A stretch of DNA of 58,757 nucleotides, from contig JAJYIV010000004.1 in assembly GCA_021789915.1 (NCBI GenBank), positions 1-58,757 on the forward strand, given 5' to 3'. The first letter of the stretch is position 1. The number at the start of each line of letters is the position of its first letter. Shown piece by piece: positions 5,940-51,604 of the stretch. This DNA comes from a bacterium (lineage in GTDB: Bacteria > Patescibacteriota > Patescibacteriia > UBA9934 > GWF2-40-263). The notes under the pieces were generated by a model. The model had not been told where the DNA came from, searched no databases, and saw only the letters and a list, made by a program, of their open reading frames with translations. The position numbers and the translations under genes are program-made.

Positions 5940-8555
5940 ATGCCAGGCTACGACCATCAAGCCGTCGAAAAGAAATGGCAGGACGTCTGGGAACGCGAGC
6001 AGCCCGGCCGCGTCGAGGAGGATCCGGCGCGCGCGGCGGACGCGCTCTATCATCTCGTCATGTTTCCGTACCCGTCTGGCGCGGGGCTGCACGTCGGCCA
6101 CGTCGAGTCCTACACGGCCGTGGACATCCTGACGCGCTATCGCCGCATGCAGGGCAGGCGCGTGCTGTTTCCGATCGGCTATGACGCGTTCGGTTTGCCG
6201 GCGGAAAACTACGCCATCAAGACGGGCATGCCGCCCGCCGAAAGCACGGCGGCCAACATCGCGAACTTCCACCGGCAGATGAAGGCGCTCGGTTTTTCTT
6301 TCAGCTGGGAGCGCGAATTCGCCACGTGCGATCCGTCGTATTACAAATGGACGCAGTGGATGTTCCTCGAGCTGTTCAAGCGCGGGCTTGCCTATAAAAA
6401 GAAGGCGCCGGTCAATTGGTGCGAGAAGGATCAGACCGTGCTCGCCAACGAGCAGGTCGTGAACGGGGCGTGCGAGCGCTGCGGCACGCCGGTCGTGCAG
6501 AAGGAGATGGAGCAATGGTTCTTCGGCATCACGAAGTATGCCGACCGCTTGCTGAACGGTTTGGACGCGATCGACTGGCCGGAGAAGATCAAATCGATGC
6601 AGCGCAACTGGATCGGGCGTAGCGAGGGGGCGGAAATTGTCTTTTCTTGTCATCCTGAAGGAGCGCAGCGACTGAAGGATCTGTCGTCGGATCCTTCGCC
6701 TGCGGCTCAGGATGACAAATACTCGATCACTGTTTTCACCACGCGTCCCGACACGCTCTTCGGCGTCTCGTACGTCGTGCTGGCGCCGGAGCATCCGCTG
6801 GTGGACATCCTTACGGTTCCCGAAAAGAAAACGGAGATGGACGCGTACCGCGCCGCCGCGCGCGGCAAGTCGGAACTCGAGCGCACGCAGTTGGAGAAGG
6901 ACAAGAGCGGCGTGTTTACCGGAAGTTTCGCGACGCACCCGCTCACGGGCGAACCGGTGCCGGTGTGGGTCAGCGATTACGTGCTGACGACGTACGGCAC
7001 GGGCGCCGTGATGGGCGTCCCCGCGCATGACGAGCGCGATTTCGCGTTCGCGAAGAAGTACGGGCTGGCGGTGAAACAGGTGATCGCCAATCAGTTTGGT
7101 GTGAGAAAACCTGACGGTGATCTTTCTCCCGTCGAGTGTTATACCGGCGACGGACCTCTCATCAATTCCGGGGAATTCGACCGGCTGTCGAATCAAATCG
7201 CCAAGCATAAGATTGTTGAGAAACTTGCCAAGGAAGGGAAGGGCGCGGCGGTGACGAAGTACCGCCTGCGCGACTGGCTCGTGTCGCGCCAGCGCTATTG
7301 GGGCGCGCCGATCCCGATCGTTTATGATCCCGACGGGAAGCCGCATCCGGTGAAGGAGGAACATCTGCCGCTGCGTTTGCCGGAGGACGTCGACTATCTG
7401 CCGCGCGGCACGTCGCCGATCGGCTCGTCCAAGAGCTACGTCGCGCTGGCCGAGAAACTCTACGGCCCCGGCTGGCGCTTCGAGACGGACACGATGGACA
7501 CCTTCGTGGATTCCTCGTGGTACTTCCTGCGTTATTGCGATCCGAAAAACGCGTCGTCCTTCGCCGACCGTTCCAAGATCGATTACTGGTGTCCGGTGGA
7601 TTTGTACGTCGGCGGCGCGGAGCACGCGGTGCTGCACCTGCTGTACGCGCGCTTCTTCGCGTACGCCCTGCATGATGCGGGCCGCATCGGCTTCGAGGAA
7701 CCGTTCCTCGCGCTGCGCAACCAGGGCATCATCCTGGGCCCCGACGGGGAGAAGATGTCGAAGTCGAAAGGGAACGTCGTGAATCCGGACGAGCTCGTGG
7801 CCGAGTACGGCGCGGATGCGCTGCGGCTCTACGAGATGTTCATGGGACCGCTCGAGGACATGAAGCCATGGGACACGAAAGGCATCGTCGGCACGCGGCG
7901 GTTCTTGGACAAGGTGTGGAAGCTGGCGGAGCGCGTCACGGACGTGGAAAACATCTTGGCGCTTCGTCCCGTGCAGAAGACCATCAAGAAAGTGACGGAG
8001 GACGTCGAAGCGATGCGCTTCAACACGGCCGTGTCCGCGCTGATGGTCTGCGCGAATGTGCTGCAGGAAGCCGTCGCGGCCGACCCCGCCGCCGGCCGCG
8101 CACACCCCCCGCCTGCCGACGGACGGCCAGCAGGCAGCCCCTCCTTCGGCTTCGCTCAGGACAGGCCTTGGCAGGGGGGCAATGTCGGCCGGCAGCCTTC
8201 CCCTGATAAGGGGGGGATTCCTCGCAACGCATTCGGCGACTTCGTGCGCCTGCTCGCCGCGTTCGCGCCGCATCTGGGGAGCGAATTGTGGGAGCGCGCC
8301 GGGCTCGACGGCTCCGTCTTCGACGCCTGGCCGTCGTACGAGCCGACGCTCGTGCAGGACGAAACGGTGAAGATCGCCGTGCAGGTGAACGGCAAGCTGC
8401 GCGGGTCGATCGAGGTTCCCGCGGACGCGTCCGCGGACGACATCGTCGCGCAGGCCAAGTCCGAGCCGAATGTCGCCAAGCACCTCGAAGGGAAGACGAT
8501 CGTCAAAACGATTTTCGTGCCAGGCAAGCTCGCGAACTTCGTGGTGGGGGAGTGA
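5940..8555 (+). CDS. leuS: Leucyl-tRNA synthetase
   Basis: PYPSGAGLHVGHVESYTAVDI, TTRPDTLFG, KMSKSKGNVV; FVPGKLANFVV C-terminus. Confidence 0.97.
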   Translation: MPGYDHQAVEKKWQDVWEREQPGRVEEDPARAADALYHLVMFPYPSGAGLHVGHVESYTAVDILTRYRRMQGRRVLFPIGYDAFGLPAENYAIKTGMPPAESTAANIANFHRQMKALGFSFSWEREFATCDPSYYKWTQWMFLELFKRGLAYKKKAPVNWCEKDQTVLANEQVVNGACERCGTPVVQKEMEQWFFGITKYADRLLNGLDAIDWPEKIKSMQRNWIGRSEGAEIVFSCHPEGAQRLKDLSSDPSPAAQDDKYSITVFTTRPDTLFGVSYVVLAPEHPLVDILTVPEKKTEMDAYRAAARGKSELERTQLEKDKSGVFTGSFATHPLTGEPVPVWVSDYVLTTYGTGAVMGVPAHDERDFAFAKKYGLAVKQVIANQFGVRKPDGDLSPVECYTGDGPLINSGEFDRLSNQIAKHKIVEKLAKEGKGAAVTKYRLRDWLVSRQRYWGAPIPIVYDPDGKPHPVKEEHLPLRLPEDVDYLPRGTSPIGSSKSYVALAEKLYGPGWRFETDTMDTFVDSSWYFLRYCDPKNASSFADRSKIDYWCPVDLYVGGAEHAVLHLLYARFFAYALHDAGRIGFEEPFLALRNQGIILGPDGEKMSKSKGNVVNPDELVAEYGADALRLYEMFMGPLEDMKPWDTKGIVGTRRFLDKVWKLAERVTDVENILALRPVQKTIKKVTEDVEAMRFNTAVSALMVCANVLQEAVAADPAAGRAHPPPADGRPAGSPSFGFAQDRPWQGGNVGRQPSPDKGGIPRNAFGDFVRLLAAFAPHLGSELWERAGLDGSVFDAWPSYEPTLVQDETVKIAVQVNGKLRGSIEVPADASADDIVAQAKSEPNVAKHLEGKTIVKTIFVPGKLANFVVGE
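6647..6719 (+). repeat. Palindromic dispersed repeat (TGTCATCCTGA..GAAGGATC/GATCCTTC..TCAGGATGACA) inside leuS
   Basis: Inverted repeat TTGTCATCCTGA...TCAGGATGACAAA inserted in frame; similar sequences occur near 45.6 kb and 58.5 kb. Confidence 0.85.
8100..8214 (+). repeat. Repeat-derived insertion inside leuS
   Basis: Low-complexity segment CCCCCGCCTGCCGACGG..CTTCGGCTTCGCTCAGGACAGGCC..GGCAGGGGGG encodes non-LeuRS residues (HPPPADGRPAGSPSFGFAQDRPWQGG). Confidence 0.75.
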
Positions 8556-8573: not shown

Positions 8574-8602
8574 TTGACAAAAAGGAACATTCGTGTTGAA
8601 AT
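8574..8602 (+). promoter_or_regulatory. Sigma70-type promoter of tRNA-like RNA locus 1
   Basis: TTGACA (8574-8579), 17-bp spacer, TGAAAT (8597-8602). Confidence 0.7.
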
Positions 8603-8608
8603 ACACGC

Positions 8609-8791
8609 AACGAGTGGAGGCCACCACGGCTTCAATCTCGGTGTCAGCAACATCCCCCACATCGGTTTTCCGATTGGGGGATTTTGCGTTCATCCCGGAG
8701 TCCGTGGTCATGCGCGGGCCCGTGGGAGTAACGGCAGCTCCACTCGTTTTGACACCGAGAAGTACGGGTTCGAATCCCGTCGGGTCCACCA
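8609..8791 (+). ncRNA. Candidate structured ncRNA 1: antisense leader plus hairpin plus tRNA-like
   Basis: Leader segments 8609-8619 and 8637-8646 are complementary to 8738-8748 and 8750-8759 of the downstream tRNA-like; hairpin at about 8652-8682. Confidence 0.7.
8716..8791 (+). tRNA. tRNA-like, alanine-identity acceptor (G3.U70, A73, encoded CCA); apparent anticodon UGA, irregular D and anticodon arms
   Basis: GGGCCCG/CGGGTCC acceptor, ACGGG-TTCGAAT-CCCGT T-arm, CCA; 5-bp D-stem GGAGT/GCTCC, 4-nt variable loop. Confidence 0.65.
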
Positions 8792-49939: not shown

Positions 49940-49968
49940 TTGACAAAGAGCAAAAAACGTGATTCAAT
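49940..49968 (+). promoter_or_regulatory. Promoter of tRNA-like RNA locus 2
   Basis: TTGACA (49940-49945), 17-bp spacer, TTCAAT (49963-49968). Confidence 0.65.
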
Positions 49969-49974
49969 GTCGTC

Positions 49975-50148
49975 AACCTAGATGAGTCCTCCATGGACAA
50001 TCCTGGTGGCGAAACAAAACCCCCGCTCAAGGCAGGGGTTTTGTTTTTTGCATCGACCCGGGCAGGACCTCGGGCCCGTGGAGGTAATAGGCAACCTCGT
50101 CTAGGTCGCCACCAGAAGTTACGGGTTCGACTCCCGTCGGGTCCACCA
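49975..50148 (+). ncRNA. Candidate structured ncRNA 2: antisense leader plus terminator-like hairpin plus tRNA-like
   Basis: Leader 49977-49986 and 50003-50012 complementary to 50096-50105 and 50106-50115; hairpin CAAAACCCC..GGGGTTTTG-TTTTTT at 50015-50049. Confidence 0.7.
50072..50148 (+). tRNA. tRNA-like, alanine-identity acceptor (G3.U70, A73, encoded CCA); apparent anticodon CGC, irregular D and anticodon arms
   Basis: GGGCCCG/CGGGTCC, T-arm ACGGG-TTCGACT-CCCGT, CCA; 5-bp D-stem GAGGT/ACCTC, 4-nt variable loop. Confidence 0.65.
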
Positions 50149-50308: not shown

Positions 50309-51604
50309 ATGCCCGCCCTTCGCATCGAAGAAATATCATCTCACGTTGGAGAAAAAATAGAGCTGCAGGGCTGGGCGTACAACTTTCGTTCCAGCGGCAA
50401 GATCTTCTTTCTCCAGCTGCGCGACGGTTCCGGCCGCGTGCAAATCGTCTACTCCGCCGCCAATCTTCCGGCGGAGCAGTGGGAGCTGCTAAACAAGCTG
50501 CGCATCGAATCGTCCGTGCGCGTTTCCGGCACGGTGAAGGAAGGCCGCCAGCCGGGGAGCTTCGAACTCGACGGCGCTTCGTTCGAGGTGGTGCAGATGG
50601 CGCCGGAGGATTATCCGATCGGCAAAAAGGAGCATGGCCCGGATTTCCTGCTGGACATGCGCCACCTGTGGCTGCGCAGCGAGCGCCAGTGGGCGATCCA
50701 GCGCGTGCGCAACACGATCATCAACGCCACGTTCGCCTATTTCAACGAGCGCGGCTTCATCAAGATCGACACGCCGATCCTGACGCCGACGGCCTGCGAG
50801 GGCACGACGGAGCTGTTCGAGATGGACTACTTCGACCTCGGCAAGGCGTATCTCGCGCAGTCGGGACAACTGTACCTCGAAGCGGCGGTGATGAGCGTCG
50901 GCCGCGCCTTTGACTTCGGGCCAGTGTTCCGCGCGGAAAAGAGCAAGACCCGCCGGCACCTCACGGAGTTCTGGATGATGGACGCGGAAGCCGCGTTCGC
51001 CGACCACGAGCAGAACCTCAAGACGCAGGAGGAACTCGTCTGCCGCATCGTCAAGGACGTGCTCGCGAAGAATCGGGCCGAGCTGGCCACGCTGGAACGC
51101 GACGTCGCGGCGCTGGAAAAGGTCCAGGCGCCGTTCGTGCGGCTCACGCACGCCGAGGCGGTCGGGAAGCTGCGCGCGCTCGGGAGCGACATCGGGCCGC
51201 TGGACGATCTGGGCGGCGACGATGAAACGATCCTCACCAAGCAGTACGACCGGCCCGTGTTCGTGGAGAAATATCCGGCGGCCGTGAAGGCGTTTTACAT
51301 GAAGCGCGATCCCGCGGATCCGCTGCGCGTGTTGAACGACGATCTGCTCGCGCCGGAAGGCTACGGCGAAGTGATCGGCGGCAGCCAGCGCGAGGACGAT
51401 TACGACGAGCTCCTCAAGCGCATCCGCGAGCACCAGCTGCCGGAGGAGGCGTTCCGGTGGTACCTCGATTTGCGGACGTACGGATCGGTGCCGCACAGCG
51501 GCTTCGGCTACGGCCTGGAGCGCCTCGTGACGTGGATCTGCGGCTTGCCGCACGTGCGCGAGTCGATTCCGTTCCCGCGCCTGATCAACCGTCTGACGCC
51601 GTAG
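50309..51604 (+). CDS. asnS: Asparaginyl-tRNA synthetase
   Basis: Class II aaRS; OB-fold start LQGWAYNFRSSGKIFFLQLRDGSG; FRAEKSKTRRHLTEFWMMDAE; GFGYGLERLVTWICGL. Confidence 0.92.
   Translation: MPALRIEEISSHVGEKIELQGWAYNFRSSGKIFFLQLRDGSGRVQIVYSAANLPAEQWELLNKLRIESSVRVSGTVKEGRQPGSFELDGASFEVVQMAPEDYPIGKKEHGPDFLLDMRHLWLRSERQWAIQRVRNTIINATFAYFNERGFIKIDTPILTPTACEGTTELFEMDYFDLGKAYLAQSGQLYLEAAVMSVGRAFDFGPVFRAEKSKTRRHLTEFWMMDAEAAFADHEQNLKTQEELVCRIVKDVLAKNRAELATLERDVAALEKVQAPFVRLTHAEAVGKLRALGSDIGPLDDLGGDDETILTKQYDRPVFVEKYPAAVKAFYMKRDPADPLRVLNDDLLAPEGYGEVIGGSQREDDYDELLKRIREHQLPEEAFRWYLDLRTYGSVPHSGFGYGLERLVTWICGLPHVRESIPFPRLINRLTP

Follow-up and report, generated by a model that had tools for sequence, protein, structure and literature searches.

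A two-part RNA gene family, in which an alanine-type tRNA look-alike is preceded by a leader antisense to it, is encoded by genomes of the Patescibacteria (CPR bacteria). The window considered here, that is, the whole stretch of 58,757 nucleotides that was analysed, carries two members on its forward strand. At locus 1 (8574-8791), the initial annotation had described a promoter and two leader segments that are exact reverse complements of two sites in the downstream tRNA-like (8609-8619 with 8738-8748, and 8637-8646 with 8750-8759), and had concluded from the order segment 1, segment 2, A, B that the arrangement is pseudoknot-like in cis. All of these coordinates, both complementarities and the order were verified on the sequence. 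The features of locus 1 are the following:

8574-8579 and 8597-8602, forward strand: leader promoter, with -35 TTGACA, a 17-nt spacer and -10 TGAAAT (sequence).
8609-8619, forward strand: leader segment 1, AACGAGTGGAG, exact reverse complement of target A (also covariation).
8617-8633, forward strand: predicted leader hairpin P1, between segments 1 and 2 (leader RNA fold).
8636-8646, forward strand: leader segment 2, complementary to target B, with the exact core CTCGGTGTCA at 8637-8646.
8648-8688, forward strand: leader 3' hairpin P2 followed by a U run, resembling an intrinsic terminator (sequence, fold).
8716-8791, forward strand: tRNA-like of alanine type, with G3.U70, A73 and an encoded CCA (ARAGORN, Rfam, fold, alignment).
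8738-8748, forward strand: target A of segment 1, CTCCACTCGTT, comprising the D-stem 3' strand plus the anticodon-stem 5' strand.
8750-8760, forward strand: target B of segment 2, comprising the anticodon loop plus the anticodon-stem 3' strand; its portion TGACACCGAG (8750-8759) is the exact reverse complement of the segment 2 core.

The two targets do tile the anticodon arm, as had been proposed, but segment 1 reaches beyond it to pair also with the D-stem 3' strand. What had been taken for an imperfect anticodon stem is instead a conserved 4-bp stem with a 9-nt loop (UUUUGACAC in locus 1), and the tRNA-like alone is predicted to fold into a cloverleaf (-28.6 kcal/mol). It scored 44.4 bits against RF00005 and was labelled tRNA-Ser(UGA) by ARAGORN and Rfam. 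A hairpin at the P1 position is visible by eye in most family members. The gene found upstream of locus 1 is leuS (window 5940-8555).

The second site pointed out in the initial annotation (49976-50148) is likewise a true member, possessing its own promoter, two segments and a hairpin:

49940-49945 and 49963-49968, forward strand: leader promoter, with TTGACA, 17 nt and TTCAAT (sequence, promoter scoring).
49976-49986, forward strand: leader segment 1, ACCTAGATGAG, complementary to CTCGTCTAGGT (50096-50106) with one G.U pair.
50003-50012, forward strand: leader segment 2, CTGGTGGCGA, complementary to TCGCCACCAG (50106-50115).
50013-50050, forward strand: leader 3' terminator-like hairpin with U run (sequence, fold).
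50072-50148, forward strand: tRNA-like with G3.U70 and A73 (ARAGORN 'Ala CGC', 36 bits).

Downstream of locus 2 lies a class II synthetase gene of the Asp/Asn/Lys type (window 50309-51604). The presence of synthetase genes beside both window loci is probably a coincidence, since other copies lack such neighbours. A whole-genome search with the 200-bp element returned eight loci, which later searches raised to ten complete copies, besides one orphan leader (L007). With ten complete loci of differing sequence in which the complementarity is kept, a chance origin of the arrangement is far excluded in this genome. In two of its loci (L008 and L029, in G000), which form a subtype, the D arm is shortened (GGGCCCGGGCAYGGTTGCCTC) and the leader match is still perfect.

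Plain BLAST found matches in 12 genomes among 40 relatives. A covariance model built from 18 sequences (R1), in which members score above about 55 bits and ordinary tRNAs about 35-52 bits, identified the family in 36 of the 73 genomes of Candidatus Uhrbacteria, the order to which the window belongs. Two more (G060, G061) were found by a model of the tRNA-like (R2) and had their leader confirmed by reading, bringing the count to 38 of 73. Outside the order, R1 matches of about 35-52 bits were mostly ordinary tRNA-Ala and were left out of the counts; the family also extends to other orders within the class and, beyond it, to other classes of Patescibacteria, where the acceptor is GGGGCUG..CAGCUCC. 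The presence of the family is patchy, even within genera. Rfam holds no entry for it and a search of open-access papers found no description, so that the novelty of both the family and the antisense-tRNA-like pairing is provisional, the literature search having covered open-access papers only.

The arrangement is supported by covariation. In the first 18 sequences, 93.8% of cells in the pseudoknot structure were paired and 87 two-sided changes were counted, against 23 in shuffles. When 84 distinct sequences were aligned to a model lacking the pseudoknot, 90.8% of cells in the two leader helices were paired (95.2% for the segment 2 helix), with 452 two-sided changes, compared with 124.6 +/- 15.9 after shuffling and with 46-114 such cells when the helices were slid out of register. 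At anticodon nucleotide 36, each of the four possible Watson-Crick pairs to the leader is represented (UA 54, GC 10, AU 9, CG 8). The proposal of a new ncRNA class in Patescibacteria, which the initial annotation had made dependent on homologues preserving both helices, is supported: the covariance model and the search of relatives that it had called for yielded a family in which both helices are kept and covary.

The cloverleaf of the tRNA-like covaries as well, with 97.1% of cells paired overall (acceptor 100%, D stem 98.6%, anticodon stem 88.4%, T stem 98.9%). Since leader helices and cloverleaf both covary, selection acts on the same strands to maintain pairing with two mutually exclusive partners, and the conservation of the D and anticodon stems implies that the free tRNA fold is itself under selection. 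Pairing between segments 1 and 2 was also considered as a selected leader hairpin and rejected, being weaker and largely a consequence of the three other pairings, as it breaks where A:B uses G.U. The evidence for an outer extension of the acceptor stem (P0) is weak.

It is well established that G3.U70 together with A73 confers the identity of alanine tRNA and tmRNA. G3.U70 is present in all 84 tRNA-likes while neighbouring acceptor pairs change with compensation, and A73 is found in 82, so that the tRNA-like carries alanine identity; judging by these determinants, it is probably alanylated by AlaRS via G3.U70. Other near-invariant positions among the 84 are G1-C72 (83), U33 (84), A38 (83) and C37 (77). 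The central triplet, on the other hand, is UGA in 49 of the 84, the remainder being divided among 13 other triplets (14 in all), yet it covaries with the leader, meaning that pairing and not decoding is what is conserved. With C37 in place of a purine, a shifting triplet and an anticodon arm usually mismatched at 31-39, normal decoding, and hence simple mistranslation, appears unlikely. A serine or suppressor tRNA was rejected because the triplet is not conserved and the long variable arm of tRNA-Ser is absent (the variable loop has 4-5 nt), the 'Ser' label of ARAGORN being due to the triplet only. The suggestion of a tmRNA-like RNA devoid of an anticodon arm did not hold: the anticodon stem covaries, the score against the tmRNA model is 27 bits for a cut-off of 47, the tag is absent, and a separate canonical tmRNA is encoded elsewhere in the genome (133 bits).

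Each copy is matched to its own leader. In this genome each of the ten leaders finds its best match in its own tRNA-like (mean score 53.8, against 28.3 for the others), and of 113 loci, including those from other classes, 93 lie above the 99th percentile of the mismatched combinations. The majority of the remaining loci retain one long arm, and a few outside the order, such as L139 and L123, have no matching leader. The estimated cost of opening both RNAs is about 22 kcal/mol, against about 37 returned by the two helices; calculated without junction terms, clamping comes out favourable in 85 of 85 cases, at an estimated median net gain of -13.9 kcal/mol. The leader is therefore complementary to the tRNA-like and specific to the copy, as is expected of an antidote and its effector in an RNA-RNA toxin-antitoxin pair.

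A leader promoter scoring at least 9/12 is present in 74 of 85 members, against 4 of 85 shuffled sequences, with a 17-nt spacer in 63 of the 74. The median distance from the -10 to segment 1 is 7 nt, which places segment 1 at about +1, at the predicted 5' end of the leader RNA. At its 3' end the leader has a GC-rich hairpin and a U run; in genus g7 (L109, L218-L222, L226) the terminator-like hairpin has loop insertions of about 60-120 nt that share sequence. A second promoter is built into the leader terminator in 16 of 26 members outside Uhrbacteria, its -35 lying within the terminator loop and its -10 after the U run, at a spacing of 16-18 (mostly 17) nt. Of 58 Uhrbacteria copies only 1 was counted as having it, though several copies of family f4 show it by eye. 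A second promoter ahead of the tRNA-like implies two transcription units in most lineages, and outside Uhrbacteria the leader and tRNA-like are thus probably made as separate RNAs and pair in trans. The two may share one transcript in most Uhrbacteria, given that most copies there show no second promoter. The self-clamping cis tRNA of the initial annotation is accordingly plausible for this order, but probably does not describe the other orders.

The reading we favour, to which we give an even chance, is that of a two-RNA module in which an alanine-accepting tRNA-like effector is switched off by a dedicated antisense leader RNA. The leader would be made from its strong promoter and end at its own hairpin. 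Segment 2 would first contact the exposed U-turn anticodon loop, opening the anticodon stem, after which segment 1, at the extreme 5' end of the leader, would take the other anticodon-stem strand together with the D-stem strand, the predicted product being a four-way junction without tRNA shape. When the leader is absent or outnumbered, the tRNA-like would keep its cloverleaf, would probably be charged with alanine by AlaRS, and would act in its free form, most likely on translation. Several observations sit uneasily with this scheme: most Uhrbacteria copies lack a separate tRNA-like promoter, a few members outside the order have no matching leader, the copies lie among housekeeping genes and not in defence islands, some loci have been retained vertically across genera, and C37 with the usual 31-39 mismatch makes simple mistranslation unlikely. 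By analogy, we infer that the logic of such a module resembles an RNA-RNA toxin-antitoxin or standby pair. A more specific version, possible but doubtful, would make the family a phylum-wide RNA-RNA toxin-antitoxin system, with an alanine-charged tRNA mimic as toxin, an antisense antitoxin opening the anticodon and D arms, and the antitoxin terminator doubling as toxin promoter.

Among the alternatives to the antisense-controlled effector, the active species could be the leader:tRNA-like complex itself, acting as a two-piece tmRNA-like RNA that is charged with alanine and enters stalled or idle ribosomes with a pre-paired 'codon' strand. The tmRNA-like alanine identity, the covering of the anticodon loop by the leader helix and the predicted stability of the complex are in its favour. 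Such a role is nevertheless unlikely, as the genome already has a true tmRNA, the leader has no conserved open reading frame (no common start codon or frame was seen by eye), every copy has its own pair, and an RNA working only as a complex would not need the conserved free anticodon and D stems.

An improbable second alternative is that the tRNA-like takes no part in translation and donates alanine to peptidoglycan bridges or lipids, the leader barring it from the ribosome. Staphylococci have a non-translating tRNA-Gly to which such a donor may be likened, and alanine identity without a fixed anticodon, C37 and a T-loop TGC replacing TTC in 9 of 84 tRNA-likes would all suit it. It leaves unexplained, however, both the matching antisense RNA of every copy and the patchy distribution, and no aminoacyl-transferase gene was present beside the copies examined.

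The scarcity of second promoters in Uhrbacteria, the terminator-like hairpin and the possibly extended acceptor stem could instead be read as a cis-acting attenuated tRNA gene, the leader terminator controlling read-through and the pseudoknot holding the precursor until processing. This is distinctly improbable in view of the separate promoters in most members of other orders, and since segments 1 and 2 lie off the terminator stem there is no clear antiterminator. A T-box attenuator was rejected, as the segments and terminator do not overlap and no Rfam T-box match was found in the window. Decayed tRNA genes or functionless copies of a mobile repeat, as might be imagined from the multiple copies and the interruption of some by GIY-YIG elements, are hardly credible given the strong covariation across orders and classes, the invariant G3.U70, the vertical synteny and the conserved promoters.

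Comparison with known systems helps to place the antisense-controlled module. Canonical bacterial tRNA-Ala (RF00005) shares with the tRNA-like the cloverleaf, G3.U70, A73, the TTC T-loop and an often encoded CCA, but lacks its variable 'anticodon' without decoding sense, C37, 4-bp anticodon stem with 9-nt loop and upstream antisense RNA. tmRNA (RF00023) also has an alanine-type tRNA-like end with G3.U70, whereas the family has an anticodon stem, no mRNA-like domain or tag, and a partner RNA that is a separate 5' piece. CreTA and related RNA toxin-antitoxins (PMC8501985, PMC10097628) combine a translation-acting small RNA with a small RNA antidote in orthogonal pairs; here the CRISPR effector is absent, the effector (a putative toxin) is a tRNA-like, and the antidote would bind the anticodon and D arms of this RNA by direct pairing. 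Type I antisense antitoxins and plasmid copy-control RNAs (hok/sok, RNAI/RNAII type) resemble the leader in being short antisense RNAs with a terminator hairpin whose pairing begins at a U-turn (YUNR-like) loop, but their target is an mRNA or primer instead of a tRNA-like, and they lack the two direct-order arms leading to a four-way junction. The tRNAOther of Bacillus cereus (PMC3399842), likened by description, is a tRNA-like not serving translation, but it has no antisense partner and is a single copy on an island. The T-box riboswitch, finally, is an RNA leader reading a tRNA anticodon, unlike the present case in which leader and tRNA-like are encoded together and no antiterminator was seen.

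Many CPR genes annotated 'tRNA-Ser' or 'tRNA-Ala' are alanine-type tRNA mimics with an antisense partner, of which up to ten orthogonal copies occur in genomes of only about 1 Mb. If the proposed control is true, this would be, as far as the searches show, the first tRNA-like under a dedicated antisense RNA, and would supply orthogonal RNA pairs as natural tools, as well as a means of approaching the control of translation in symbiotic bacteria that are uncultured.

The copies have housekeeping genes as neighbours (leuS, ugd, miaA, uvrA/uvrB, metK), with no defence islands, and some loci are orthologous across genera, as in the leuS-ugd pair L001 and L098, where vertical retention was accompanied by changed segments and preserved pairing. 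For this reason, the idea that the variable segments sequester a conserved mRNA was rejected. A phage or plasmid origin was also discarded, with no phage match and plasmid matches limited to 28 bp of an ordinary tRNA end.

Every strong Uhrbacteria tRNA-like with inspected upstream sequence has a leader, as does each of the lower-scoring ones read in this way (segment 2 only in L002). Conversely, four loci, found by chance in a non-exhaustive search, have an intact leader while their tRNA-like is broken or missing (L007, L202, L020, L024), an asymmetry of loss that fits an antidote-effector pair. In L202 (G019, downstream of leuS) a GIY-YIG element interrupts the tRNA-like, whose 3' half resumes beyond it. 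L020 and L024 (G003, G004) contain T-loop inserts of about 80-100 nt, partly self-complementary, that could be an intron, an extension or an insertion element. In L007 (G000:C26) a GIY-YIG nuclease gene occupies the place of the tRNA-like, and the GIY-YIG genes of L202 and L007 are flanked by REP-like repeats. In other orders (L129, L137), GIY-YIG genes lie directly upstream of true tRNA-Ala genes, which suggests a preference of these genes for tRNA-Ala-like sites.
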